From Lunularia cruciata (lineage: Eukaryota > Streptophyta > Marchantiopsida > Lunulariales > Lunulariaceae): a stretch of DNA of 64,000 bases. A program made the position numbers and the translations under genes. Where the stretch lies: positions 56,624,291 through 56,688,290 of the forward strand of contig OX419755.1 of assembly GCA_948567375.1 (NCBI GenBank), read 5' to 3'. This document shows, in pieces, positions 14,801 through 64,000 of the stretch (the first letter of the stretch is position 1; the number at the start of each line of letters is the position of its first letter). Under the pieces are notes generated by a model, which worked only from the letters and a program-made list of their open reading frames with translations, made no database searches and was not told the origin of the DNA.

Positions 14801-17800
14801 ATTAGTTCCAGCCAGAGAAGGAACAAAAGATAAAACTTACCACTAATCCCGAAGTAGGAAATGAGAGCAGAAGCCATTTGAAGAACGGAGGATCCAGACA
14901 CCACTAAGTGCATATGAAGTGCATATGACATGCAAGCATGAACGTGTGCAAACCGAAATGAATTGCATCCAAGGAAATGGAAATTGAGTGAAACTAACAA
15001 TGTGAAGGTAAGCCGAATTAAAGACATAATTGAAACACACCATGAGTAGCACCTGTAGAGAGAACTAGTATAAGACAAAACCGATTAAGCATCTGAAATT
15101 GAAGTCGGGGAAGGGTGGAGTGGAGCGAAGTGGGAGAGTGGATGGTGTCTTGGCTGGGTCGGAGCGGAGTGTGAGAGGACTGGATGGTATATTGCAGCAT
15201 GCGCTATCAACACATCAGTCCTAAAACATTTAACACTGAAGGAAGCAGAAAGGTGGTCTAGAAACCCTTCACGAAAGTACTAACGACTTCATCAGTGCCT
15301 AACGCAGGGCCTAAGTAGCTGGGCGAATGCCAGTACCCCTCGCACCGAGTTTCTCTTCAAACGCTCATGAGTGCTAAGGCAAACTCTGTTGCTTCCAAAC
15401 GTGCCGCTCAAATATGTAGCAGTGAGAAGTAAGGAAGCGCTGGAACTTATGCAGAAGCCAGCATGGCCAAGTAGGAGCACCTGTGAAGCCGAACGTAACT
15501 CGGTAGAAATTGGAAGGAATGGGCATAAAAAATGCAGAATAGAAACCATGAACAAGGAAAGGATGCATGATCGGGAGCACGAGCAAGGAAAGGATTTGAG
15601 ACGCACCTCGGTAATACCTGAAAGAAAACATCTATTAGTAGAGAAGCAAGCAAACAGAGTAGAATTGCAAGACGGCAATGAGAAAAATAGCATGAGTGAG
15701 AGTGATACATGCAAAAGAAAAAGATAGTGACGACTAGGAAGACGAGAGGAGAAAGATCATTGAAGAACAGGAAGAGGCAAGAAATACCATTAAGGAGTGT
15801 GAGAGAAGGAGAGACATTGTTTGCGTGAGGTGATGTGAGGGAGAGGGGCTGTAGAACCGAGTGGGTCTCATGCAGTTAAACAGCAAGCATCCGAATTATA
15901 CCAAACACAGAATATGTATTACATGCAAAAACAATTCTGTATTACACAAGTAGAAAGAGATTCGAGGGCTGTTGGTATAACTACCGGTGGCCGGTCTAAA
16001 TCATTACGAGCAAGTAATTTGCGGATGAAGTCAAGTTCATAGGTGTAAAGGTACAGATTACCCACAAAGACCACCCAAGGTGTACCCATAGAAATTCCGA
16101 AATCTTGACGGAAAAGCTGATTCCCGGAGGTGATGTAGAGGTTGCCAAATAAAAACAGCATCCAACGGACCAGAATGTCAGCATCAGCAGACACGAACTT
16201 GAGGTGTTTTGCCAACGGAGAAATGTTATATTTGCTTGTGAGCCATCTGTATTTGAAGTCGAAGGCAGAGGTCTCGACTACTAACACTGACTCTGTGTTG
16301 AGAGTGAAGCTATATTGGAAAGTGATCGGATGAGAGTAGCCAACCTTCTTTTGAGGTCGTCAAGGTGAGCCTTTGTAAATAGGGTGGTAAAATCAAAACT
16401 CTGAAAAAGACCTTTTCTTCTGGTGGCAGAAGGAGTCTTGACTGAACATTTGTCGCAGGGATTAGTGGACAGTGGTTTGCTTGGTCTTTGCACCTTCTCG
16501 AGTAGAATGGGAACCGCCAAAGAGTCGTCCAAGATCCAGCGGATGTTGGCCAGAAGTCCTGCTCGTAGGAACTCATCCATCCAGAGAGCGTGAGCTGTTG
16601 GTAGTAAGGCTTTGAAGAATGAGCTCAGCCAGAGTGATAGTTCGGAGAGGGACGTAGAGTGTCCAGCAGCAATAAACCTAGGGACGAAGGGTGACGTGGA
16701 ATTCGCAAGCGCAGCACAATGAGGGGTGTCTCTTGGTATCCTCGGAGTTGCAGAATACGTGAGTAGTATTGAAGGTGTTGTGAGAAAGCAAAAGCTGTGG
16801 TTGTGGAATCTGTATTGGTTTGTAAGTAGCTGAATGAGAATGAAGTTAGTTGAGCAGAGTTTGGACGTAGAGTGTCACCAAACGAACATAGAATTGTTTG
16901 GACACTTGTCCGGATAAGTAATAATGAAGTGGGATTGAAGCAAGAAAGGAGATTTCTATCGTGACTAGAGAGGAAGAGCGGATCGGCTGCATCAAATTCG
17001 TCCGGAATGGAGGGGAGGTTGAGGAACTGGTTAAACTGTTGTAGAAGCGTGTGACCTTCCATTGGTCAAGAAATTCCTTGGTTACATAAATTGCTTCCTG
17101 AGATAGTCTGTAGGCGCAAAGACCAGCAAGAAAGCTTGGATAGCATTGAAGGTGGAGGGGGAAGATGGGAAGACAAAACTTAGTACCTCTTGAGAAGAGA
17201 GGTGATATGTTGCTGGAAGGCAAGATATGAAGCTGCAATGACATGTCCATGGAAAGGGTCAATGAAACCTGGATGGTAAAGACAATGACACGGGGAAGAA
17301 AGGAGGGTTAGCTCCAACTGGGTGGATACTGTTCTCGCCGTTAGAGGATAGTCGAACTGTAGCCGGCTCAGAGTCCTAATCTACCTGTAGGCGGCGATGG
17401 GGACTTTGAGGAGATTCTTGGAGGTATAGCATCCAGAGATTCCCAGAGGTATGGCAATCGGGGATAGGAAGGGGAAGATGATGAGAGTAGGACGTATGTC
17501 GGGAGTAGATGTGTCGAGAGAGTAGTGGGGAGAGAGAGAAAGTAACAAATGATATATGAGAGCACGGACCTCCACTTCATCTTCATCTCTAAGTAGTACT
17601 GCAGTGGGAGAGGACGTGGAGAATTCAGAGAAGGTTGCCAAACCTAAAGCGCGAGAGGAAATCATCCGTGAGATTGTCTCAGTCAAACATAGTGAAGAGA
17701 TAAAAAGTCCTCATGAGGGAGCCCACGTAGCAGTTAGTGTTGCTCAAAGAGTAAGTGATGTAAATGTCTCCTTCGTCCATTATTGTCCTTTATTGGGTCG

Positions 17801-20800
17801 AGGAAGGAGTTATCACCGGTGTGAACGACCCTCAGGTCCCTTAACGTTTGGAGCATGGGATCAAGATCAGTCAACAAGTAAGAGGTAAGGATGCGTGCGG
17901 AATAGGGTTCCGGGTATAGTAAGAGAGGTCCAATGAGAGCAGAGAAGTAACCGACATGGCAACACGGGAAATTTCGCGTTCTAAAAATCAAGGGGACATG
18001 CTTTTGCAGCAGGTGAACAAAGCTTCTAGTCTGGTGTGTGTCCTCACTTTGTTAACCGCAAGATGGCCGAGTTGGCAGTATTGAAGACAAAGTTGGCATC
18101 GTCCATGGTGTCTCCCGCGTCAGCTAGCGCGAATCTTGTCGCATCGGCAGAAAACTCCGCTGCTCAACGAGTCAATAAATTCACCTGATCAATCCTTGAC
18201 GAAAATATTTGAAAGAAAGCGCAGAAGGTTCTCGATCAAAGCTAAGTTCTGTTGGTACTCGACATTACCTATAGATTCACGTATAGTCCTGAAGTTGCCA
18301 GTAGATTTGGACATTTTCTCCGAGTTGAGCATGATGTGTCCGTTACATCTAAACGCCAGAGGCCAATTCTTCTGTAAAAACTCAGTGATATGACTACATT
18401 AGTCAAATGTCATGGCATGAACACAATTCCAGGTTGACTACAATTTATAAACAACTGCAGTAACAATTCAAATCAGTACTCCTGGTCAAATTCACACCAA
18501 AAATTGCTCAATGCCACGTCTTGCTTGATACGGGGTACTCAATAGCAAGAAAGATGAGCACCCGAACGACTTGCGACAGGCATGATCCAACTACATCGTA
18601 GGCAACACAAAGGATAGCGTCATCAACCTGTAAAGACTTGACTAGAGAAATCCGAAATAGTTATTCCCACAAACCTCTGGGAAAACTGCTGTATGATTGT
18701 ATATCGAAAATGTCAAATGATTCTGAATCAAGTCCTTCCCTGAGACACGCAGATCGAATGGGTACCAATATCCAAACTCTTGCTTCATTTTCTGCAAGAA
18801 CATGAACAGATACAGCAGGAGTGTAAGACAGAAGAAAGGATCACAGAGATGTGAAACGCAGCTACTGTGACTACTATCAAAAAGAGGGACAACGGCACAT
18901 TGTCTGATGTTATGCAGCACCCCGTTAGGAGACCCGGTTTCACAACCACGTGGACTGACTTGACATGCCATGTACTCGGTTAGTTCCTGTGAAGCTTTTC
19001 TCGGCGAAAGTGAGGGTGAAGGGGAGGCCAGGTACACTTGTGACATTCTCCTTTATTCAGGTTCTTACCTTCTTTTCAAATGAGTCTCGACCAGTTTCAG
19101 TGAGCAACAAGCAGCCAGCAAGCCGTAGTGGGGGACATATCTAAGTTCCTTTGTAGGGTGAGACAGCATTGCAGAAAACATTTGATGGCAGCGGGAGACG
19201 GTGGGAAACGTACCCTGCTATTCTAATCTTTAGGGTGATAATTAGTGAATGCGGAAAACAGGAAAGAGAGGAGTGAATGGATTTAGGGCAAACACATTCA
19301 TAAATGGAATAAGTAGTGGTCTGTTACTTACCTTTCTTTTCAGAGAAAATGTGATTAGTTAAGTAATTCACCCATGTCCTTAATGAACTGAGAAGCATTT
19401 AGTCAGAGCGAGAGTATCAAAAAGATTGCATTCAATCGAGAAGCCAGGGAAGGTATTTATGCATCTCAAAGAGCAGCATTCAGCTTTCGTATAGCAAAGT
19501 CGATGTATGCGTGTACTAGTGAGTACAAAAGTCCTCAAATACCTAGTGAATTCAACCTTCTAATCCGAGGCTTGATACCGGCCGACTTTTAAAGTCAAAG
19601 TACGTCGAGTGATCAAGGTGAGGTGGCAAGAAGTAAGGAGTACAAGACATTCCTTACGTAACGCGTACGTTTCTCAAATTCATCGAGACTACTGCGACAC
19701 CAAATTATGGGAAATAGTGATCTGTTCATCTCTTGAAGCCAGCTTCATCACAAGGCCAGGCGTAAACTCCATATATGTCCAATGAGAGCAGAAGCCGTTC
19801 GTAGAACGGTGGATCCACATCCAATTAGGACAGAAGCGACGCAAACTAAGCACATGCAAATCTAAGTAACTAAGCGCATGCAAGTCGAAGCAATGCGCGC
19901 AATGCCAAATTGATAAACTGATACATTCCATGAACGATGACCAGTGCATTCACTATAAAGAGCAATGTGTCTCAAAACGGCATTTACTTAAACACTTGAT
20001 AGCGACCTCAGAAAGTCTAGACAAAGAGCTAGATTGCATCTCAGATTGTGGATGTACCGATTCTTACAGTTAGCAGGTCGATAGGAATTTTAGTGTCAGG
20101 CAGAGGACCATCGCGGAAGATGTAATTCCACACGGCAGGGGTCATCTGCTCTGGCTTCACCAGAGTACTCTTTGAACCAAATAAGTCGCCACCCTGCCGT
20201 CACATGCTTTTGTTAAATTGAGAGACAACGATTGCATTGACCTGGACTGACGGTATCTCCCACAGTTTTCACCAGCGGAACTACATTCTTAGAGATGCAT
20301 TGATCAATCTTCTCAAGTATATCTTCACCACCTACCTGATGGTTGGGTAGTAACAAAATGATAATAGTGATTTGGCAGTGAGAACTTACCTGTAGAAAAT
20401 GAGCAACAGTGTAATACGCCATGTAAATTGTGGAATCTGACAGCGATTCAACAAGGAACTGCTTGTCCCACGGTAACCGAGTACCTAAACCGAAAGACCG
20501 AGAGCAGGCCCACTGCAAAAGGATCAAATAATCATGGCATAAGCGGCAATTCCACCAACTTCCTATCGAACTACGTACTTTCAAACTGCTTATAGTAGCT
20601 TGTGCAGAGTGACCAGGGCCTTTATCAACGTCAGCATTATGAGCGTTAATTGAAGAAATGGCCGTAGGGACCTTGATCCTCCAACAATGTTTAGCAGAAG
20701 GAGTAATCAAAGCCACGGGAAGTAACCACATGGAAGTCTAACACACTAAACGTACAGCGTTGACAGTAAGAGGGCCTTGACAGTTAACAATTTGGAAGAC

Positions 20801-44025: not shown

Positions 44026-45943
44026 GCATGGCTATAGACTATGGGATCCAAAGAAGAGAAAAGTGGTCAAAAGTAGTGATATGATTTTCATGAACAAGAG
44101 ACTATGAAAAATTAAAATCAGATACAAGCTCCAATTGGATTTTTTGACATATAGTCTCTAGGAGAAGATGGATCTATCATGAAGCAAAACCAAGGAATAT
44201 GAGCCAATTACAATTGTAAATGATGCAGTTGAGTTAGATACAAGAAGTGTGAGCAAGCTGAGCCAACCCCAACTCTACTACCTTAGACAAGGAGATCCAA
44301 GTGGGAGCAATGGATCATCTCCTAGATATCTTAGTTTTGAGTATATTTTAATTATTGACGAGGGAGAGTTCGAGGACTTTCATGATGTGTAGAAGCACAA
44401 GGATAAAGATGGTTGGATTCAAAGAATGCAAGAAGAGATTTGTTCTTTGCAAAAGAACAACATTTATGACTTGGTGAAACTACCAAAAGGTAGGAAAATA
44501 TTGCAAAACAAGTGAGTTTTCAAGCTCAAAGAGAGTGGTGACAAGCTAATGATGTACAAGGGTAGACTAGTGGTCAAAGGCTTCGCATAGAAATAGTGCA
44601 TTGATTTTGATGAGATTTTTTCTCCAATTGTGAAGATGTGCTCAATAAAAATTGTATGTGGCCTAGCAACTAGCTTAGACTCAAAGCTTGAGCAGCTAGA
44701 AGTGAAGACTGCATTTCTACATGATGATTTGTAATAGGAGATTTACATAAAACAATCAAAAGGATTTGAAGTGAAGGGGAAGGAAAACATGGTCTATAGA
44801 TTGAGGATGAGCCTATATGGACTAAAGCAAGCTCCATGACAATAGTACAAGAATTTTGATTCATTTATGACCAAGCAAAGTTATAGACAAATGGAGTCAA
44901 ATCTATTTGTGAACGTCAAGAATTTTTGTAATGGTAATTTCATTATTCTATTATTGCATGTAAATGATATGCTTATCATCAAACAAGATAGGATGATGAT
45001 TTGTAAACTATTAGAGGAGTTGTTTAAATCCTTTGACATGAAGGATTTAGGTGTTGCAAAACAAATTCTAGCCATGTAGACTTTTTATGATAGGAATGAT
45101 GGGAAGCTATGGTTCTTGCAGGAGAAGTATGTGGAATGGGCACTATAGAGATTCAACATGAAGCAAAGCCAATGGTCATGCCTCTTGCTAATTATTTCAA
45201 GCTGAGTAGACAATCTGGTCCAACTATAGAGTATAAAAGGGAGAATATGGTAGATATTCCTTACTCCTCTACAATACATTTGTTGATATATGCCATGATA
45301 TGTACACAACTAGATATTGCTCATGTAGTTGGCATGTGAGCAAGTATCTTTCAAAAATACACTAGGAAGTGGTGAAATAGATCTTTAGGTACTAAGAGGC
45401 ACTTTGAGATTATGCATAAGGTTTGGTAGGGAGAAGTTGAGTCTTGAAGGATCAACTGATGTAGACATGGTAGGATCAGGACAATATGAAATCTAATTTG
45501 GGGTATTTGTTTACCTTTGCATGTGGAGCTATTTCTTGGTAGTCTAAATTACAAATATGTGTTGCTTTATACCCAATAGAGGCTGAATATATTGTATCAA
45601 ATGAAGCAAGCAAAGAAATGTTATGAATAGGGATTTCTTCAAGAGTTTGAATTAAAGCAAGATGAATACATAGTATTTTGTGACATTCAAAGTGCATTGG
45701 ACTTGAGTAAGAATTCCTTGTACCATGCAAGGAAAAAGCACATTGATACGAGATATCATTGGTTGAAAATAATGATAGAAGAGCAAAATATGCAACTCAA
45801 AAAGATCAATACATATAGAAACACAACAAATATGCTTACAAAGACCATTTCTAGAGAAAATCTTGAACTTGGCGGAGATGGACACAAGGTGAGAAATTAA
45901 GCAAGAATCTCCTTCTCATAGGGCCCAAAGGGAGGAGATTCTT
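44026..45943 (+). pseudogene. Second Ty1/copia pol remnant, heavily degraded
   Basis: Sequence resumes at the end of integrase (LWDPKKRKVVKSSD read through small errors at about 44,038). Reverse transcriptase follows (KTAFLHDDL near 44,705; YRLRMSLYGLKQAP near 44,797; LLHVNDMLI at 44,950, with Asn in place of the first catalytic Asp). RNase H traces follow (PIEAEYIVS, IQSALDLSKNS). Many stops. The region ends at a polypurine tract (AAAGGGAGGAGA, about 45,927-45,938) just before the LTR. Confidence 0.88.
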
Positions 45944-46197
45944 TGTTATGGAAGATTCATGTCCTGGCCAATAAAGAGTTTAAGGTGTTTCTCCTTCTCC
46001 CATTCAGTTTTGAAAGAACCCGGAAGTTAGACATAAGAAACTTCACTTAGAAACGTAATAAAACCAAGGTAAGTAAGGAGGTGGGTGAGAGAATGTGAGA
46101 ATAAAAGTACCTTAGGCCCTATAGAAAACCCTATGTTGTTAGTAAAGCACGGGTACTCCACACAAATTGTAGAGAGTTAAGGTTTGGGAAGTATATA

Positions 46198-48094
46198 AGT
46201 ATACAAGAACGGAAGCCATTCTGGGATTGGGTTATCCAGAACTCCTGAAGTGCAAATGAGCAATAAACAATATGTACATGATACTCAACACTAGGAATAT
46301 GTAACCCCGAGGGTAGAATGCACGGAAGGTCAATGACACGCAAGACTAGAGTAGTGAAATCCTGAAGTTAGAATGCATCGAAGGTAACCTACAGCAATGG
46401 CATAATTGAAATAAACATATTGAAACACAAACATTTCTATATGAGAAATATCATCAAATGAAACGCAAAATAACTATCATGTGGAAACCATTAGATAGCA
46501 ACTTGCATAGTTGAGATGCAGCCTGCAAAGAAATGGAGAAAATACTCCCACATAAGTAGAAAAATAAAGACTCCATGAAGAAACGGACAGCTGAAAAGGA
46601 TGGAGATGAACTGGTGGCAAGAGACAAGTAATAGTCGGTAAATATCACGGGTCAAGAAGAGCTGAGTCAGGAAACAAAAATTGGAGAAGGTGGATGAGGC
46701 AAAGCATAGGAAGGATAAATTTCTCAGAGAATGAGGGAAGATGAGCAAAGCATCCAAGGACGTGGATATCGATATATCACAACAAGCGCTATGGACGCCT
46801 GAGTCCAGAGAAGCCAAACAGCTGAGGGAAGCAGAAGATGGCCATAGTACATCCCCATGAAAACACATGCAACTTCATCAATGCCTCACGTAGTGCCAAA
46901 GTAGCTGAGCTAGAGTCAATACCCCTCATACCGAGTTTCTGCTCAAAAACTCATGAGTGCTAAGGAAAACTTGGTTGCTCCCCTACAATGCCGCTCAGAG
47001 CTCAGAAATAGTGAGAAATAGTGAGATACAATATGCATCAGCAAAACAAACATCATTGTAAGAAAAATGCAGCGCTGCACGGGAGGGACCAACAAAATAA
47101 AACAAAGTAGCAAGATACATGAAGCATCAACAAAAAAAACAGCAGCAAAGTCAGCGAAGGAAACATCTTTGTAAGAAAACTCAGCGCTTCTCGAGGAGGG
47201 ACCTGCAAAATAAACCTTATCACAAGAAAGCACAGTGTTGCAAGGGAAGGGACAAGTGGGGAGCCAAAACAACTTTGCTATCCTTCACAAGCAAGGACTA
47301 GTGGGAGAGACCCCAGCAAACCACAAGCGGGGAGTAAAAAATGTCACTGCTGCAACAAGAAAGGACAGCGGGAGAAACCCTATCAAACCCCAACCCAGCA
47401 AACCCAGCAAGAGAAACCCTCGCGACCAAAGAAACAAGTAAGAGTACTAAAAAGAAAGGAGGGGAACTGGCGATAGGGCAACCGACAGAGGCAACTGCAA
47501 CCTTGTGTGAAGGGAAGAACCATGTGGGCCACGTATCCATAAGCAGTGGACACGTGTCCAACAGTCTGTGATGAAAATCCACATGGCATAAAAATCCAAA
47601 GAGTGTTATACCACATATAATGTAACAATATGAAGTTTAGCGACGAAGTCAGTCGGGCTCACGAAGTAGCACATAACACAAATTAGCCTAGAATATTCCG
47701 GAAGTATCTAGGAAGCTTCTTGGGAAGCTTCCTGGTTAGCTTAGCTTGCACCTTAAGTATGTAGCTTCTAGAAGGAAGCTTCTAGAAGCTTCCAACTAGC
47801 TTAGCTTGCACGCCAAGTAGGCGGCTTCTAGAAGGAAGCTTCTTGAGAAGCTTCCTAGTTAACTTGGCTTGCACTCTAAGAAAGCGGCTTGAGGAAGCTT
47901 GTTGAGAAGCTTCTCAAGGGCCTTGTATGTACCTATAAATACCAAAGCCAAAGCTCACGCTAGGCATTCGGAGTTTTCCCTCATTCAATTGTCCCAATGT
48001 GAGCTTACATTCTCCTATTTCTCTCCTCGGTTTCGGTCTTTTATATATAAAATACACTAGAAGAGGCAAGATTGTATACAAGTCTAAGGGAAAA
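46198..48094 (-). repeat. Downstream terminal repeat of the Penelope-like element
   Basis: It matches 52,562-53,551 over its length, apart from a ~480-bp expansion (about 47,100-47,580) and a ~420-bp extra segment (about 47,620-48,045). From its 5' side on the minus strand it includes GTTTTTCCCTTAGACTTGTA, a conserved ACTCATGAGTTTTTGAGCAG block with AAACTC closing a hairpin, and a 3' hairpin module ending ...CTTGTATACT next to the target duplication. ORFs inside show no conserved protein features. Confidence 0.85.
47620..48045 (+). promoter_or_regulatory. Heat-shock-element array plus TATA box within one terminal repeat
   Basis: Absent from the other terminal repeat, where the flanks (CCACATATA / AAATACACT) are joined. 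Alternating nGAAn/nTTCn units occur at 47,691-47,704 (GAATATTCCGGAAG), 47,711-47,732, 47,764-47,792 (TTC-TA-GAA and GAAGCTTCTAGAAGCTTC with no gaps), 47,824-47,854 and 47,892-47,914. A TATA box (CTATAAATA) follows at 47,932-47,940, about 20 bp after the last unit. This is the layout of a plant heat-shock promoter on the plus strand, antisense to the element. Function is inferred. Confidence 0.6.
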
Positions 48095-48449
48095 ACTACT
48101 GGTGGGCTCAAAAATGAGCTCCCCACCTGGCAGAAAGAAACAGATGTTCTCAGATCTCTTTATATACTAAGCCCAATGATAGACCATAGATAGCATATAT
48201 AGGTATACGAGAACAGTAGCCATTCTAGGAACACGTTATCCAGAACTCTTGAAGTATAAATGATCATAGATAGTGTTTATATGAAAAAAGAAGTCAAGTA
48301 CAACTCTTGATCAAATGTATGGCATCCAGGCCTACAGTAAAAAGTACTAGTGGGTTCAAATTGGAGCTATCTGTCTAGGAGAAAGAATAGATGTTCTTAA
48401 ATCTCTATAGGTACTAAGCCCATCATAACCATGGATATCTTTTTCCATT

Positions 48450-51127
48450 TGTAAGACTGAGTGAAATTTTTTTTGGATCATGTGAAGGGGGTAATTCTCA
48501 GAGATAAAGCTATTTATAAGTTTTCTACAAGCTAAAAGGTATGACTTTTTGGAATTACATATCCGTCTATATCAAACACATTTGGATTTTATAATCCCAA
48601 GTTTACATTTAGAGGAAATGTCTGAAAGAACATGAGGGAGTGAGATTGTCTTAATGTGAGCAAAGTGAGGCAGCTCTTTCTTATCATAGATAGAGACAAA
48701 GATATTGAAGTCGTCATGAGTAATGCAACAATCGAGATAATCACAATGAGTGCCAAAATGAGTTCAAACTAGCTCACACGAGAGTTTGGGATAGATCGTG
48801 CCACCTTTAGCAGCATCATCCATATACATAAAATCCGTAAAATGATCGAGTCCCGAGCCAACCACTAGAAGATCATCAACATATCTTCAAACATGGGACA
48901 GGTCGTACAATAGAGCGACATCATTGGCATCCAGCAATCTGCAAATGAAGTCCAATTCATAGGTGAAGAGGTATAGATTAGCCACAAAGACAGCACAAGG
49001 TGTCCCCATGGGTATCCCAATCTCTTGACGGAAGAGCTTATTTCTGAAAGTGATGTAGAGGTTATCAAAAAGGAATAACATCCAACAGATGAGACAGTCC
49101 TCATCAACCGCCATGAATTTGAGATGTTTTGCCGATTGAGAGATATTGTTTTGGTTTTTAAGCCATCTATATTTAAAGTCAAGTATGGAGGTCTCAACCA
49201 TTAACATGGTTTCCCTATACAGAGTGAACCTATAATGGAAAATAGATCTGATGAGAGTAGATAGTCTTGTCTTGAGATAATGGAGGTGAATCTTAGTATA
49301 AAGGGTGGTGAAATCAAAACTTTGAAAAAGAACCTTTTCCAAGGTGGCAGGAGTTTGTTGCAAACCAAAATCTGTGGGAGAAGAGGATCTTCTCCTGGAC
49401 ATTCTTTGCAACCGCTCAAGCAAAACAAGAACGCCAGAAGAGTCACTCAAGATTCAGCTAGAGTCAACCATCAGCCCCACTCGTAAGAACTCATGCCGCC
49501 AAAGGTTGTTTGCAGAAGGGAGCAATGCTTTGAAGAATGAGCTCAACCAACAAGAAAGTTCAGACAAGGAAGTGGAGTAGCCTACTGCAATGAACCGAGG
49601 AGCAATGGGAAACTTATGGAATTTCCAAGCGCAGCAGAAGTAAGGAAGTCTCTTGGAATCCTTGGAAGCACAAAATCCCTGAGAGGTATTGAAACGGTGG
49701 TGAGAAAGTAAAAGTTGGTATTGAGGAAGCAATGAGAGTTTATAGGTTGCTGAAGGAGAATGAAGCTCGTTGAGTAAAGTTTGAATGTAAAAGTGTCGGC
49801 AAACAAATACAAAATTGTTGGGACACTTGTCCATATAAGTAATAATGAAATGGGACTTGAAATGAGCAAGAAGTTTTTGATCATGAGGAGAAAGGAAAAT
49901 CAGATTGACAGAATTGAAATCATCATGCATGGGAGGGAGATTGAGTAAAAGTTTAACCTTTTGTAGGATGGTGACTTTCCAGTGGTCAAAAATACTTGTG
50001 GTGCCCAATATGGCTTTGTAATAAAGAACAAAATTACGAATACAAGTTTGAATCACAATGGAAGTAGAGGGGGGAGAGGTAGGCAAAATCCAAAACTTTG
50101 TTCTTCTAAAGAAGAGAAGTGAAATGTTGGTGGAAGGTAAAATGTGAAGCGATGCTGTAATGACATGCACGTGTGAAGGGTTAATGAAACCAAGATGTTG
50201 AAGACAACTGCAAGGAGAAGGAGGAGAAGAAAAATGTGATAATTTCCATGAAAGGAATGCAAAGTTAAAGTGTAAATGGCCTAGATTTTTACCATACTTA
50301 AAAGAAACAATGGGGATAGTAAAAGGAGTACCTAAAGGTAAAGCCTATAAAACTTTTGGATCTCTCAACAAAGCTTGTAAACAGACCTTGTCTATCTCCT
50401 TAGAGGTGAAAGGGAAAATGAGAAGGGTGGGACGAATGTCTAGAGTGGATCTACGATGCAAGAGGTATGGAGACAAGAAGAGCAAAAGGGGTTTGAGGAG
50501 TGTAGTGATATCTGATTCAGTCCTAAGTAAAACCACTAAAGGAGTAGTTTTAAGGACATAAATAATCCTCAACAAATTATGAATGCAAAAATGTGCGAGA
50601 GAGGAGTTAGAGAGGGTATCAAAGTCAAACAAGAAAAATAGATGAGAAATACGATGGAGGTAATCTCAATAGGCATATCTTCTAGAAATGGGAAAGTTGG
50701 CCGTAGGGGATGTTGAAAGGGGAGAAAGAGTCTTGGAAGAAGAAACAGAAGGGGTGACAGAAGAGAGGAGAAGTGTGGTTGCGCTCATATTACGCCGGTA
50801 GTTGATGCAAGATACTCTACCACAAACATTGTACCCACGAGGAGCCCAACAGTTGAGGAGACGAATCCAAAAGAGCTCCTTCGGGTTAGCAAAATCTCTA
50901 AAACTAGTACTTGGAGGTACCTGGACCATAGGGAATAGACGGAAGTCATGAAACCCAAATTTAGCCATCATGGCCATCAAGGGAGTAAAGTAGAAGGTAG
51001 AAGACCAAAGAACAGAGAGAGACTTTCCCAAGCGGCAGTGTTGTTGAAATCTTCAAATAGCAGAACCCGTAGTTTGGCCCACATAGCATTTGTCATTATG
51101 AAAGGAATAAATGATATAGATAACACC
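48450..51127 (-). pseudogene. GIY-YIG endonuclease + Penelope-like reverse transcriptase ORF
   Basis: N-terminal nuclease: GVIYIIYS (from 51,127), KCYVGQT (to 51,071), RFQQH, then the catalytic Glu in KELFWIRLLNCWAPRGYNV (about 50,880-50,828), the signature order of a GIY-YIG domain. Reverse transcriptase: a DKCPNNFVFVC block; the KFHK version of the Penelope K(I/L)HK motif (WKFHKFPIAPRFIA, near 49,600); SFDFTTLYTK (near 49,315); EIGIPMGTPCAVFVANLYL (near 49,000); the active site YVDDLLVVG (48,884-48,858); and a distal LDCCITH...YDKKELP and YRRICN...LINSFISENYP thumb region to about 48,450. Breaks: TGA after TTGSAI, frame changes near 50,800, 49,454 and 48,890, and TGAs near 48,770 and 48,570. 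No C-terminal GIY-YIG is seen, so the domain order is permuted relative to canonical Penelope. Confidence 0.83.
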
Positions 51128-51463
51128 CAAGTCATATAAGGGATGAGAAATGAAACCTGTCCTCTATGGCAAAATCTCAAAGCCCTTAAGTGCTACAAAA
51201 TGGGATCCGGTTTTGTAGAAAAATGACTAGTGAGAAAACATGTCTTGATTGTAGGCCAATCAATCCTACCTGGAGGGAAAGGGAAAGTCTGAGTAAGGTT
51301 AAGTATAGAGATAGATTTGAAAGAGATGTTGCCTGGCAGAGAGGTGCCCATGTAGGGTGTAATCACGAGGTGAGGTGAAGGCAAAAGAGTGACGGGAAAG
51401 ACTTTAAAGAAATCCAGAACCTCGATCATGGGCAAAAAGGTGACTTAACAAAGGAACAAGAGG

Positions 51464-51647
51464 CTAACGTGGACTAGATTGTCCTAGTGACATGGACTGG
51501 AACATCCTGGTGATGTGGACTGGAACGTCTTGGTGATGTGGACTAGAACGTCTTGGTGACATGGATTGGAACATCTTGGTGACATGGACTAGAACATCCT
51601 GTTGACGTGGACTAAAACGTATTGGTGACGTGGGCTAGAACGATCTC
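51464..51647. repeat. 23-bp minisatellite in the Penelope leader
   Basis: Seven exact-length units starting at 51,487 and every 23 bp after (GTGACATGGACTGGAACATC + CTG and variants), plus one degenerate unit before. Units differ mainly by C/T and A/G transitions. Confidence 0.93.
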
Positions 51648-51754
51648 ATGACTTGGTCAAGGCTAATGTGGACGTGATCGAGGGTAAGAAATGCAAAATG
51701 ACAATGAGGATCAAATCTAGAGCAAGAGCGAGGTTCGAGAAGAATATAACTCTA

Positions 51755-51990
51755 GAACATGAAGAGTAAGGGGCCGAGGTGGCCATAACAATGGTGCAAG
51801 GCTTGAGAGCCAGAAAGAGAACCCAGAGGAAGACTATGGTTCAAGAAAGATCTAATTCCAAAGCATGAAGAGTAAGGGGCAGAGGTGGCCATAACCCTAG
51901 AGTAGGGCTCGAGGGTCAAAAAGGGAATCTAGAGGAAGAACATGAATAGGAAGGAGCAGAGGTGGTCTTATCAATGGAGCAGGGCTTGAG
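51755..51990. repeat. ~106-bp degenerate tandem repeat in the Penelope leader
   Basis: The phrase GAAGAGTAAGGGGC-GAGGTGG recurs at 51,761 and 51,867 (106 bp apart), and a shorter GGAGCAGAGGTGG version at about 51,950. Each is followed by GGGCTTGAGGG-type words. Probably leader repeats of the element. Confidence 0.7.
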
Positions 51991-52561
51991 GGCCATAAAG
52001 GGCTGATGGGGCCAGAGGTAGAGATGCTAGTGTACATTGAGCATGGGGCAAAGATGCCAATGTATAATAAGCATGGTGCACGGTTCGAGAGCCTGACAGA
52101 GTGCCACAAATAAAGGTAGAAAGATGTCACTGAAGAGAAGTAATGCCAAAGGCAAGTCAGAATCAAAGAAGACATATGCTCTGTGAGATAGCCAACAAAT
52201 TATCAAGTGAATGAAAGAACAAGAAATGCAACCAAGCACAACAAAAAGGGTTAGAACCATAACACGGGAATCAGCTAAATTGGCAAGCATCCATACTTCA
52301 TACAATGAAATCAAAATTGGGAATGAAAGTTTTGAAGACAAATGCCATAGTGAAAAAGCAAAATCCAATCATGGAACTAGAAAATTGGCAAATGAACCAC
52401 TGACAGGAATCTATAATGAATGAACCAGAGCTTATTTGTCCTAATCCGGCTATTGTAGTGGGGCCTGAATGTTGTATAAAGAAACAAAAAATCTGTTTCT
52501 AGATAAAACACAAAGGCGGCTGAACACAAACCCCGCCATTGCGGTCTCAAAGTGCCAATAG

Positions 52562-53551
52562 GATATATATAGGTATACAAGAATGGAAGCCATTCTGGGA
52601 ACGGGTTATCTAGAACTCATGAAGTGCAAATGAGTGATAAACAATATGTACATGATACTCAACACTAGGAATATGTAATCCCGAGGGTAGAATGCACGGA
52701 AGGTCAACGACACGCAAGACTAGAGTAGTGAAATCTTGAAGTTAGAATGCATCAAAGGTAACCTACAACAATGGCATAATCAAAATAAACATATTGAAAC
52801 ACCAACATATCTATATGAGAAACATCATCGAATGAAACGCAAAATAACTGTCACATGGAAATTGTTAGATAGCAACTCGCATAGTTGAGATGCAGCCTGC
52901 AAAGAAACGGAGACAATACTCCCACATAAGTAGAAAAATAAAGACTCCATGAAGAAACGGACAGCTGAAAAGGATGAAGATGAACTGGTGGCAAGAGACA
53001 AGTAATAGTCGGTAGATATCACGGGTCAGGAAGAGCTGAGTCAGGAAAAAAAATCGGAGAAGGTGGATGAGGCAGAGCATAGAAAGGATAAATTGCTTAG
53101 AGAATGAGGGAAGACGAGCAAAGCATCCAAGGACGTGGATATCGATATATCACAGCAAGCGCTATGGACGCCTGAGTCCAGAGAAGCCAAACAGCTGAGG
53201 GAAGCAGAAGACAGCCATAGTACGTCCCCATGAAAACACATGCAACTTAATCAGTGCCTCAGGTAGTGCCAAAGTAGCTGAGCTAGAGTTAGTACCCCTC
53301 ATACAGAGTTTCTGCTCAAAAACTCATGAGTGCCAAGGCAAACTCGGTTGCTCCCCTATAGTGCCGCTCAGAGCTCAGAAATAGTGAGAAATAGTGAGAT
53401 ACGATAAGCATCAGCGAAACAAACATCATTGTAAGAAAAATGGAGCGCTGCACGGGAAGGGACCAACGAAATAAAAATCCAAAGAGTGCATACCACATAT
53501 AAAATACACTGGAGGAGGCAAGATTGTATACAAGTCTAAGGGAAAAACAGT
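52562..53551 (-). repeat. Upstream terminal repeat of the Penelope-like element
   Basis: Direct repeat of 46,198-48,094, very similar through most of its length (for example GGAAGCCATTCTGGGA and ACAATATGTACATGATACTC in both). It ends at the internal side with the same GTATACAAGAA...GGTTATC hairpin module, so each repeat carries its own 3' module. Extends to the target duplication at 53,579 through an A-rich stretch. Confidence 0.87.
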
Positions 53552-53602
53552 TTGGGAAGTAAAAAAAACAGAAAAACAGTTTGGGAAGTATATACTCCAC
53601 CG

Positions 53603-53995
53603 GAATTGTAGAGAGTTAAGGTTTGGGATGTATTCAATCTACAATAATATATTGTAACTAGGATTTTCGTGGTGGCTTGATTCGTAATGAGAGGATAATT
53701 TCAAATTGTAGAGAGTTAAGGTTTGGGAAGTACATATTCCACCAGAATTGTAGAGAGTTAAGGTTTGGGATGTATTCAATCTACAATAATATATTGTAAC
53801 TAGGGTTTTCATAGTGGCTTGATTCGTAATGAGAGGATAATTTCAAATTGTAGAGAGTTAAGGTTTGGGAAGTACATATTCCACCAGAATTGTAGAGAAT
53901 TAAGGTTCGGGAAGTATTCAATTGACACTGATATCTTGTAACTAGGGTTTTCATAGTGGCTTGATTCGTAATGAGAGGATAGTTTCATATGCTTG
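53603..53995 (+). repeat. Three-copy 130-150-bp repeat inside the copia LTR
   Basis: Copies start at about 53,603, 53,755 and 53,887 with AATTGTAGAGA(G/A)TTAAGG and share GTAACTAG(G)GTTTTC..TGGCTTGATTCGTAATGAG. The leftmost unit lies partly at 46,165-46,197, on the other side of the Penelope insertion, which identifies the insertion point. Confidence 0.85.
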
Positions 53996-56384: not shown

Positions 56385-59300
56385 ATGGCTGTGCACGGTG
56401 GCCATTACAGTAGTTTTTTGGAGAAGCTCCAGCTTCCGCATCCTCTGGTTCAGCGATTTGCTGTTAATGCAATATTTCAGCGACTCAAGAGTGGACCTGC
56501 TCACACCAATTTGAATTCGCCGATCGGTCAGGAAGCCTTTGCTCGTTGCCTTTCTTCTACGCAGCCTGCAGTGGTTGACCAGACCGTGAAGGAGATATGC
56601 AACTTATGCCGAGAGGAGAAACTTTCCGTGGAGAAGGGCTTGCAGGAGCTCCAGTCTGCTTTGGATTCTGTAAGCGTAGAGTCAGTAGGTGGTTTGGTGA
56701 ATGGAATCGGTTACTTATGCCGCCTATACATTCAAAGCGTCCAAGAGAACACTCCTTTTATTGGAAAAACAGGAGAGCTACTTGGAGTTGGCTTTCATCC
56801 TCTTATGAAGGTACAACGTCGTCCCATTTCCCGCTCAATTCTCATGTGCACATCATGGTGAGTTACATCTTTCGACACAATTTACAAATCAAAGATTCAT
56901 GAGTAAGACTCAGCTCCTTCGTACTTGGAAAATGAGCTACAAACTGTGTAATTTGAACATGGTGCGAGAATATTAAGGGCCTCCAGAAATTTTGCTAAAA
57001 CACATACAAAAAATTGAGGGCTTAGTGTTAGCCAGTGTACTCTCTGACTATTCACAATCTGTCCATGCGTTCTTGTGGACTGCGGAATGCCCGAATACCT
57101 TTTAGTACAGCATCCGCAAATCTGTTGACGAAGTACTGGCTAGAAGTAGCTGCCTCGAACAGTCGTTCACTGGTTCAAGTGTTCACTATTCTGTCTCACT
57201 GATCCTCCGATCATCTAGACTATCAAGGAAGTTTCCCCAACAATGGCTTTGAAGGTTTAAAACTCATGAAGATCTCCAAGGAAGTCAAATCTTATGACTG
57301 CGTACAGTCACGACCAGGACTTGAGGTTCCCCTGTCACTGTGATGCTCATTCATGTGGCAGAGGTCAACTTTGAGTTCAGCAGCAAGCACGGCCTGTGCG
57401 GACTTGTACTACTGCATTGTGCTTCGCTAGTCCATACAATGTTGGGGAAATATTCTGGGAGAACCAGCTGTTCGCGTGTGTGAACCACACTAAAATACGT
57501 CGTTCACAAGTTGTGCATCTGGCATCCTTTTCCCTCTGTTTATACCAAATCTCCTGCTTTTGTAATATCTGGGATCTTATTATACCTCATGAAGTGCATA
57601 AACTCTTACTTGTTCCTGGTCTCTTTGCAGTCCTTCCAGACGAGGGTGGAGGTCCATCAACATGTCTTGCAGCAAGTACGATTGATTCTAGTTCAAGCTC
57701 TTCCCGGAAAACAGGCAACAACCTTTAAGTTTCTACAGCCATTCATCACTTTTGTACTCATGCAGTCGTTGACCTCATCCAGCCATGTTCTATTTGCCCG
57801 GGAACTTCATTATCAGTTGTCATTGATGACACTGTCATGCCAAGCTCATGGCCTGCACCTGCTGAGGATGCTGATCAGCTACATTCAGCTTTATCCTGTA
57901 GAAACAACACAGGTGATTAGTTTGTGTCTCTTTGTTTTGTTACTATCTTCTCCATGTAGAATTAGAACGTTTTCTGTGAATGTCTCAGGTGCTCTTGTTT
58001 ATAACTATATGTGGATTTGTATGTGGATTTGCCTTGGCACTCATGAGTTTTCGAGCAGAAACTCGGTATGAGGGGTACTGACAATTGCTCAGCTACGTCG
58101 GCACTGCGTGAGGCACTGATGAAGTCGCAGGTGTTTTCATGAAGGTTTACTATGGCCATCTTCTGCTTCCCTTTGCTGTTTGGCATCTCAGGACTCGAGC
58201 GTCCATAGCGCTTGTTGCGATATACTTTATATCCTGTCCTTTTTCGCTTCGCTCTCGTTACCCTGTTACACTTCGACAGGTTTCTGCAGCCACCCTATCC
58301 TATAGCTCTTACATTGTTCCACTCCTCTATTCCCCAACTAATTCCCTCCTTATTATTTATCCTTCGCTCTTTGCCTGATTCATAGGACCTCTGGTGTATA
58401 CAGTGTTCCTACCAGACTACAGCCCACGTTTTTTATTTTTATTGTACACGCACTGCTTACTGGCAGTTTTTACATAGTGTTACCTATTTCTCGCAGTCGT
58501 TTGCATAGAGTTCTAGATTTCATGGTGGTTTACTAGTCTGTTAGCCATATGTTATTGTCAATTTGTTTCAATTATGCGTTTGCTTCAAGTTACATTCGAT
58601 GCATTCTACATTGTGGATTTCTCACTATACTAGCATTGTGAATCAAGTACATCTTACTTACCGATCATTTACACTTAAATGAGTTCTGGATAACCCATTC
58701 CCAAAACGGCTGCTGTTCTGGGAACGGCTTCTGTTCTCGTATACCAAGATGTGGATTTGTATTTGTAAACTAATGTTGAGCCTACATACCTCGCCAATTG
58801 CCTTTTCAGGAATGTGAAGTTGCATTGGCAGCCAGTAACGAACTCGTTAACGTATGGGAGAGTCATGCTAAGCAAAAAGAGATGCCCCAGGACAAGGTAG
58901 GACGCTGCTATGCCATACTCGGCACGTCAAGATGGATTTTCAGCCCTGAAGAAAGCGGAGGAAGGTTGAATTTTAGGAATTGGAGATAGCTTAAATACTT
59001 AGAAGACCTGTGTTATGTGTTTTGGAAGCTTCAAGCTGATAGTCCTTTTGAGCGCTTACTGAATCGAAGTATTTGAACTGCTGTACCAAGAGCACCGTAC
59101 TAATGCACGCTTTCGTACATGAAGGAGCTGGTGGACCTAGGGCTTCAACTCCTTGGCATGCTAATTGGATCGTGCCATGAGCTGCTGTCGCGAAAGGTCT
59201 CCTTTTATCACTTACTCCTCTTGGTCAGAAGGGTGATAAAGTTATTGAGGTCTCTGAGCCCAGATTTTACTTCTGTTGTCGAGGTGCATATGGTGTCCAT

Positions 59301-60794: not shown

Positions 60795-63700
60795 GTAAGC
60801 ATCTTCACCCTACCTGATCTTCTCCCAGCATTTGTTGAATCAATGGTATGGCTGGAAATTTGGTACGAGAATGAAAGATTGCTGTTTCGTCTTTCCCAAC
60901 ACGTTTGTAATCTTTTTACCTTTTTTTAACTTCTTGATGAGTAGTAGGGAAGAATTATGCATCAAGAAGTATCATCCACTGAGTTTCACCGTTCCAAGCT
61001 CTCAAAAATTGTAGGTAAAGTTCATGTTTACTTTTAGTGGTTCACTTTCCTGCTTAATATCACATAGGATGTCAGTAGTCCCACTCATATCATATTTGCC
61101 CAAAGTCTAAGCTACTATCTTTCGCTCATAGAGCACGTTGGGATATACAATATCCGACTCAGAAACCTTTGGAAAAAGACATCGATGGTTATTATGGTCT
61201 TAGCATTTACAGAGATCTGAGAAATTCAGTTCTCTCCAACCAAGCGGGGAGCTCCTGTTTGAGCCCACCAGTAGGTAATCTCATGGCCCTTTAAATAACA
61301 CCTGTATTTGTCTGTTTATATGACATGGATTTATACCCTAATCCATGTGGCTGGTCACCTAACCCCCAAGAGAATTCCAGGCTCGCCTCTCTTCTTTCGG
61401 TTTTCATTTGGGTTCTGTCTTACTTTCCTCTCTTAGCTTCCAAAGTGCGATTTCTTTCTACTGCCTCTATCGATTTCATCTAATTTCCCTTCGCTTTTAC
61501 TCTACAATCACATGGTTATGTTTCTGTTCTGAGTTATGCTTGCCTCCCTACTAATCTTGGTTTGCTTTCAGGTTTTCACCAGGTATGTCTTTGAGAGCGC
61601 GACATACCATGTGAAAACATCCTATGTGATATTCAGTTAGTTCTGCTTTGATTTTATTGCCATTTCATCTACACTTCATATGCACTTAATGAGTTCTGGA
61701 TCTCCTGTTTGAGGAACGGCTTCTGTCCTCATATATCCATATCCGACTCAGCACTCATGAGCACTTCGTATACATTTGTTGAGTCCCAGATCTCCAGTTC
61801 ATCGAACAGCTTCTGTTCTCATCTCTCATATCCGACTCAGCAGAACTCAGGAGTGCCTGGGCACTCATGAGTTTTTGAACAGAAACTTGGTACGAGGGGT
61901 ACTGACATTTGCTCAGTTACTTTGGCACTGCGTTTGGCACTGATGCAGTCGTATGTGTTCCGTGGAGGCTTGCTATGGCCGCCTTCTGCTTCCTCTTGCT
62001 GTTCCAGCGTTTTAGAACTCATGTGTCCATAGCGCAAGTAGTGATATACTCTATCCAGTCCCTTAATGCCTTGCTCGTCTTTCCCTGTTTTCTAGGAACG
62101 GCTCCTTTGGTTACTCTTAGGGTCTTCAATTTACAATTCCTTCTTGATATCTCTACTAGTCCTTTAGTGTTCGTTTTCATGCAGATTAACGGTTTCGTTG
62201 CAGGTTTTTAACTTCTGTTCATCTCTCTTCTTTGTTTCTTCACATCTATCATGTTTCTCTGCATTTACATTCCTCTCCATGCGATGATTACCTCTTTTCT
62301 TTTTGTTTACACACGTTGATTAACAAGTTTCTCTACAGGTTTTCTAGCTTCGGATCAATTTTTGATATCGTTGCTTTGTTTTGATTCCATTCTGTATGTT
62401 ACATTTCATCGACTTTTCGCATGTTCCTTTCAGTTATTTTCTGTTAATTCGATACTTCATTGCAATTATACATGCACTTCATACGCACTTGTTGAGTCCT
62501 AGATCTCCCGTTCATCGAACGGCTTCTGTTCTCATCTCTCATATCCGACTCAGCAGATTACACACATTGATTAACAAGTTTCTCTGCAGGTTTCTAGCTT
62601 CGGATCAATTTTTGATAGTCGTTCCTTTGTTTTGATTCCGTTCTGCACGTTACATTTCATCTACTTTTCTTTTCAGTTATTTTCTGTTAATTCGATCATT
62701 TCATTGCAATTATACATACACTTCATATGCACTTGTTGAGTCTCAGATCTCCCTTTCATCGAACAGCTTCTGTTCTCATCTCTCATATCCGACTCAGCAG
62801 ACTCTATCCAGTCCTTTTTCGCTTCGCTCTCTTCTCCTATTATCCAGTTGCGTTATACGCTTTGCTCCATCTCAGACAAAACATCCACTCCGCTCCCGCA
62901 TCGCTCCACTCCTCCCGTCCTCAACTAATTCCCTCTCTATTACCATTTGATCGCTGTTTGCCTGTTTCATGGTTCATACATGACTTTCGATGTCAAGGTT
63001 CTTGACCGACTCCAGACTTTAGCTTACTTTCATTCTTCAACCGTTGCTTGTAGGTGGTCGCTTAACCAATGTGTTAATTTTCTCTGCATAGCTGTTACCA
63101 AATACACGTTGCTTACTAGTCCTTTATATATGTTGTTCTCGATATCATGTTTACATACGATTTACATTTCATCTCTTTTTTGCATGTACTTTTCTTTCAG
63201 TTTTGCTTTCATCTTATTGGCATTCCATTTGCACTTCATATGCTTTTCATGAGTTCTGGATCTCCTGTTCCTCGAATGGCTTCTGCTCTCATCTCCTCAT
63301 ATCTGACTTCTCAGCACTTGCACTTGCCTTGGCACTCATGAGCTTTTGAACAGAAACTCGGTTCGAGGGGTACTGACATTCGCTCAGCTACTTCAGCACT
63401 GTGTTTGGCACTGATGAAGTCGTACGAGCTTTCGAGGAAGCTTACTATGACCGCCTTCTGCTTCCTTCAGTTGTTTAGTGTTTTTCAGGACTCAGGTGTC
63501 GATAGTGCTTGCTGCGATATACTATATCCAGTCCTCTGATCCTTTGCTCGTTTTCCCTTGTTCTCTGAGCGATTTCATACTTCCAGTGCTCTGACTCATA
63601 CACCTTCCACGATTTTCATTTCCTGACTCTCAGATCTTCCTTGACTTGCGATTTCCAGACTTCTACTTGTCTCTTGACTCTTGTTTATCTCAATCTTTTA

Positions 63701-64000
63701 ATTTGGCTCGTTCAGGTGCCATTCAGGTGCCGTTTCTTCCTGTTGTATTTATTTCTCTACTTATGTGGGAGTTCTGTATCCGCTTCTTTGATGGATGCAT
63801 CTCAGATATGCGTGTTGCAATCAAATTGTTTCCTAGTGACATTTACTTCGCCTTTCATTCGATGATGCCTTTTCTCTTTATATGCAGGTGTCCTGTTTTT
63901 GTTTATGCGATGCATCCAACTAGGATATAGGTGTTGCTTTTACATTGCTTCCAGGTTACAATTAAAAATGGGTAAATTCGACCAGATGTTCTTTATCTTG
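60795..64000 (+). other. RST1 intron 7 (at least 3.2 kb), largely repeat-filled
   Basis: It begins with GTAAGC after the exon ending GATGTTCAG. No further exon with RST1 similarity was found before the window end, so the intron (or an exon I missed) runs to 64,000. Confidence 0.6.
61180..63950 (+). repeat. Cluster of Penelope-type terminal-repeat pieces in RST1 intron 7
   Basis: 61,190-61,280 matches (in reverse) the start of the downstream terminal repeat (AGAGATCTGAGAA, GGGGAGCTC, GAGCCCACCAGTAG). The GAGT(T/C)..GATCTCC(C/T)GTTC..GAACGGCTTCTG module recurs at about 61,690, 61,780, 62,490, 62,740 and 63,250, several followed by CTCATATCCGACTCAGCA. The ACTCATGAGTTTTTGAACAG block occurs at 61,862 and 63,335. 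The last copy runs on through the body of the repeat (TACTTATGTGGGAGTTCTGT at 63,758) towards the window end. Confidence 0.75.

Follow-up and report, generated by a model that had tools for sequence, protein, structure and literature searches.

A nuclease-first Penelope-like retrotransposon in the liverwort Lunularia cruciata, probably nearest to the Chlamys group

Two groups of Penelope-like elements (PLEs) in which the endonuclease (EN) precedes the reverse transcriptase (RT), Naiad and Chlamys, were reportedly described by Craig et al. in 2021. Chlamys elements, whose hosts are green algae, spike mosses and slime molds, encode a GIY-YIG domain before the RT in one ORF, with a CxC motif in the linker and an EN that lacks the CCHH zinc motif; they have pseudo-LTRs (pLTRs) and microsatellite-like targets, and no hammerhead ribozyme. 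The ENs of Naiad, found in invertebrates, keep the CCHH motif. According to the accessible parts of the respective papers, Chlamys has also been reported in the brown alga Ectocarpus (PMC12477816), the PLEs of land plants include Dryad in conifers and EN-minus elements in conifers and Selaginella (PMC9033089), and the repeats of Mesostigma, a streptophyte alga, include PLEs whose layout is not given (PMC6947507).

The stretch of DNA that we analysed (the window: 64,000 nucleotides of Lunularia cruciata contig OX419755.1) contains at 46182-53594, on the minus strand, an element that we read from its sequence as an N-terminal endonuclease-bearing PLE nearest to the Chlamys group, with a probability of roughly 0.92. 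Its motifs, its architecture, its pLTRs and its GIY-YIG partner all argue for PLE membership. The copy in the window is dead (in-frame stops, a frameshift and a nested insertion), and the element type is common in the genome of L. cruciata. The nuclease-first layout is known already from other organisms, and the Lunularia element mainly adds a plant group to it. When set against the description of Chlamys, the element shares the N-terminal GIY-YIG in one ORF, the CxC motif, an EN core without CxxC, the pLTRs, the TA-rich ends and the lack of a detected hammerhead, whereas the host, a liverwort, differs; the likeness is one of features and not of RT phylogeny. Domain order and CxC linker are also common to Naiad, but there the EN has the CCHH motif and the hosts are invertebrates. 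With Penelope/Poseidon and the conifer Dryad elements it has the PLE-type RT, the GIY-YIG EN and the pLTRs in common, and AT-rich targets as in Anolis Poseidon (PMC11167929, PMC9033089; available parts). Unlike in the Lunularia element, the EN of Penelope/Poseidon is C-terminal (PMC11167929), Dryad being placed in that same group (PMC9033089), and Anolis Poseidon has a hammerhead ribozyme (PMC11167929, PMC9033089), as far as the accessible parts of these texts go.

Insertion site and structure of the element

The element is flanked by exact target duplications of 16 bp, GTTTGGGAAGTATATA being present both on its 3' side (46182-46197) and on its 5' side (53579-53594), and between its 5' end and the latter copy lies a filler of 30 bases (53549-53578) that repeats part of the target. 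It was inserted into a copia-like LTR with 142-bp tandem units, of which 2.9 copies occupy 53579-53987; a copia-like reading frame at 45631-45900, assigned by eye, stops just short of the element. The empty site can be read in two neighbouring LTR units (53708-53750 and 53850-53892), each of which spans the junction uninterrupted with 3/43 mismatches, and such a match was obtained with 0 of 100 shuffles; the joined flanks align over the junction to 53702-53990 at 94.5% identity.

Of the two pLTRs, the 3' one (46198-48096, minus strand) ends in a TA run and is split by the nested insertion, and the 5' one (52556-53548, minus strand) carries an internal deletion. The direct repeats 46192-47101 and 52566-53475 share 93.5% identity along 911 aligned bases. 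The pLTR of fuller copies measures ~1.43 kb, to which ~50 bases are added next to the ORF. The 5' leader (51352-52555, minus strand) contains two minisatellites, with units of 23 bp (51467-51642) and 106 bp (51714-51939). The initial annotation had claimed the extent 46182..53594, long direct terminal repeats, leader minisatellites and a clear target duplication, all of which were recovered, the extent being exact to the base. Its suggestion of a possible new family is less well supported: PLEs commonly have pLTRs, duplicate their targets and insert at AT-rich sites, and the permuted order has already been published.

Alignments of fuller copies skip from the equivalent of 48045 directly to that of 47620, and the foreign stretch in between (47620-48044, ~425 bp), whose tandem units at 47710-47913 are rich in GAAGCTTC, was therefore inserted into the window copy at a later time. 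It has pieces of 75% identity in another locus (L017:7923-8410), contains a TATA-like stretch and is perhaps a solo LTR. Among the Rfam matches for the window element and three further loci there was no hammerhead ribozyme and only weak matches of other kinds.

Clean target duplications were present in 3 of the 11 copies examined, namely that of the window (16 bp), L012 (15 bp) and L014 (14 bp). L022, with a TA-rich 12-mer, and L019, with an 11-mer, are ambiguous cases, and the remaining copies of the 11 showed either no duplication or matches of 10-12 bases that resemble chance or pLTR sequence. L012 is 5'-truncated directly after its upstream duplication. At the outer 3' end a short TA run gives way to unlike flanks in all 11 listed loci (those of 20 in which the alignment reaches the end of the pLTR) and in the window copy; an apparent bias to microsatellite-like targets is visible at the element ends only. 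The TA-run 3' ends, the duplications and the 5'-truncation fit target-primed insertion.

The reading frame and its domains

Between the leader and the 3' pLTR lies the pseudogene of a single ORF (48347-51351, minus strand; ~1,000 codons by comparison with copy L033), in which a GIY-YIG nuclease is followed by a linker with CxC and by a PLE-type RT. It is interrupted by a frameshift near 51.13-51.16 kb and by eight in-frame stops before its end: six TGA and one TAG between 51163 and 48359, and a further TGA at 48358 just ahead of the ORF end. In the better-kept L033 (C7:28681900-28686300), EN, linker and RT share a single frame, which has 1,010 codons including the stop and two internal TGA, and the ORF ends ~110 residues past the motif IYDKKE.

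The EN domain (GVIYIIYS..KCYVGQT..RFQQH..KELFWI..GYN) occupies 50828-51127 on the minus strand. The segment GVIYIIYSFHNDKCYVGQT, which starts at 51127, is the sole match to the GIY-YIG pattern used in all six frames of the window, in agreement with the earlier claim that there is no C-terminal copy; the pattern was met in none of 20 mononucleotide-shuffled windows and in 13 of the 24 fetched loci tested. Aligned copies mostly keep GVIY..KCYVGQT, RFQQH, ELFWI and the N of GYN, residues that presumably correspond to the catalytic ones of GIY-YIG nucleases. A CxxC between GIY and YVG was absent from P0001 and from 21 of the 22 aligned rows; the other row, L017, is out of frame at this place (judged by eye, as was the HH part).

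Of the two profiles that the initial annotation had named as a check, that of GIY-YIG (PF01541, Pfam) exceeded its curated cut-off in a single copy, in the first 156 codons of L033 (23.2 bits against 22.6, E 8.7e-5), the EN of L010 reaching 14.0 bits; RVT_1 stayed below its own, with 14.3 bits against 29.6 in L011. The NCBIfam profile of group I intron endonucleases, TIGR01453, matched L033 with an E-value of 2.3e-5, below its cut-off. No EN or RT was recovered by Pfam from six pieces of the window, but the piece meant to cover the EN began at 51052, past the GIY-YIG motif, and therefore constitutes no test of that domain.

With respect to L033, the differences at codon positions 1/2/3, pooled over 20 loci and the window, amount to 0.181/0.113/0.364 in the EN and 0.141/0.108/0.231 in the RT, figures that relate to one better-kept copy and in which the frames, chosen with tblastn, somewhat favour the signal. 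When all copies were compared with each other and the frames were not so chosen, the values were 0.125/0.098/0.150 for the EN and 0.119/0.100/0.139 for the RT, a much weaker signal. The comparison with L033 shows selection on the EN.

The CxC motif of the linker (CSC, 50204-50212, minus strand) has the form SPCSCL in P0001, in the window and in most aligned copies. The RT follows at 48600-49840 on the minus strand (ends approximate). L033 and the aligned copies contain YMDKCPNN, KFHK, FDFTTLYT, PMGTPCAVFVANLYL, YVDD and IYDKKE, which we take to be the motifs of PLE RTs; the window copy reads YMDKCPNN, KFHK (~49624), FDFTTLYT (~49318), GIPMGTP (~49018), YVDD (~48883) and IYDKKE, so that the KFHK, MGTP and YVDD noted at the outset do lie downstream of the GIY-YIG and in the same frame. 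In P0001 ~100 residues separate KFHK (584) from FDF (686), which leaves room for an insertion-in-fingers domain (IFD).

The RT piece of L033 matched no Pfam family, NCBIfam yielded no more than a Drt2 match of 12 bits that spans motifs B-C, and a PDB search with three RT queries returned nothing relevant. A CbiQ match in Pfam (5.4e-05, below its cut-off) was discarded as chance, because the frame in which it falls overlaps the RT region but is not that of the ORF. A profile of the family, which has little internal diversity, did not match a 633-codon part of the host TERT. The host telomerase RT gene itself was located at L038 (G000:C7:59194253-59194681), the genome's only match to the telomerase RNA-binding domain.

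Relatives in the genome and alternative readings

An RT-led search gave 1,027 candidates, of which 121 were scored, and 127 scored RT matches; for the EN, 150 matches were scored among 192 candidates. Both lists are lower bounds, and matches are not equivalent to elements, since a small number are fragments of a single copy. In at least 49 of the 127 RT matches listed, an EN precedes the RT on the same strand at no more than 5 kb, the gap being 1.42-1.61 kb in 31 of these 49. An EN lies downstream in three of the 127 (in two of them there is an upstream EN too) and only on the other strand in one, and 76 have no listed EN within 5 kb. All 20 copies that were chosen with an EN-spanning query had an EN match as well, but this is not independent evidence, because the query included the EN; the RT-led list is. 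The initial claim of a Penelope-like element with GIY-YIG ahead of the RT in a plant is thus borne out by the window and by its relatives across the genome. Chance occurrence of the GIY-YIG motifs is excluded by the PF01541 score of L033, the codon-position selection and this upstream association (49/127).

The window itself contains a further PLE (15997-17898, minus strand), older and from a different family, which has the same domain order as the main element: a GIY..CYVG remnant of a largely deleted GIY-YIG, a CxC in the form SPCHCL, and an RT. Depending on the piece, it is 37-65% identical to the L033 protein at the amino acid level.

We considered three other readings of these data. The element may be an N-terminal EN+ PLE that belongs to neither Chlamys nor Naiad and represents a separate liverwort or land-plant branch, as could be suggested by an RT that profiles hardly match and by the viral contigs, where 270 pattern matches included no confirmed relative. 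We consider this unlikely, given that the domain order, the CxC linker, the EN core without CxxC, the TA-rich ends and the absence of a detected hammerhead all fit the published description of Chlamys. Alternatively, canonical EN+ PLEs of the Penelope/Poseidon or conifer Dryad type, which have a C-terminal GIY-YIG, might form a tandem array in which an EN only appears to lie ahead of an RT that belongs to the next unit; partial tandems do form in PLEs, and the three RT matches with a downstream EN would agree with it. Such an arrangement is highly improbable in view of the single frame shared by EN and RT in L033, of an ORF that ends so soon after IYDKKE, of the clustering of the upstream gap and of the upstream EN that two of these three cases also possess; the Lunularia element has its GIY-YIG at the other end of the protein. 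That an EN-minus PLE has by chance come to lie beside an unrelated homing nuclease of the GIY-YIG type, or beside what is left of a group I intron, as the resemblance of the EN to intron endonucleases (TIGR01453) might hint, is scarcely credible when the association recurs at no fewer than 49 RT matches and also in the second family (37-65% identical), with a shared frame and selection in the EN.

Proposed life cycle and host range

For the N-terminal EN+ PLE nearest to Chlamys, which is the reading we prefer, a life cycle can be proposed. The pLTR would drive an RNA carrying the one ORF of ~1,000 residues; going by PLE biochemistry, the GIY-YIG domain would cut TA-rich DNA, the RT would copy the RNA starting at the freed 3' end, and a staggered second cut would create the duplications of 14-16 bp. 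Copies that are 5'-truncated or partly in tandem would leave pLTRs behind, and the window copy entered the copia-like LTR and has decayed since. We infer this cycle by carrying over the mechanism of a C-terminal PLE of Anolis, whose protein, according to the available part of the report, cleaves AT-rich DNA and begins reverse transcription at an internal position of the RNA (PMC11167929).

The liverwort identity of the host agrees with its 112.5-kb plastid contig, which carries rbcL (best PDB hit 9chz), trnR-CCG, accD, the genes ycf4, cemA and petA (these three identified by eye) and an undamaged frame of cysT, a marker of liverworts; the 565.8-Mb assembly includes at least eight contigs of 60-85 Mb, and the U chromosome of Lunularia is described as uniquely small (PMC9985172). 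Liverworts are apparently an unreported host group for N-terminal EN+ PLEs. A limited literature search returned no report of PLEs in liverworts by title or abstract, PMC2864245 and PMC12026656 each containing both terms at least once. The word Penelope is absent from the available text of the three liverwort genome papers checked, including that of Lunularia (PMC9985172), which describes a relatively large class of unknown repeats.

The poor profile scores suggest that elements of this kind may sit among such 'unknown' repeats. With nuclease-first PLEs extended to liverworts, the group may have passed through early land plants rather than merely survived in algae and spike mosses. A tentative idea, which we hold to be rather doubtful, is that N-terminal EN+ PLEs have a branch of their own in land plants, with at least two old families and at least 127 RT matches in one liverwort; it would have been passed down from early land plants or from streptophyte algae and would have escaped notice through poor RT profile scores.

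L033 and L034 (C6:44711300-44715500) are 98% identical over 682 aligned residues, a likeness that suggests a fairly recent spread of one subfamily. Within the window, pLTR-like fragments of 73-85% identity occur at 58028-58719, 61861-62084, 63324-63866 and 15176-15410, and a piece of the ORF C-terminus at 61169-61252; PLE debris is therefore dense in this stretch.
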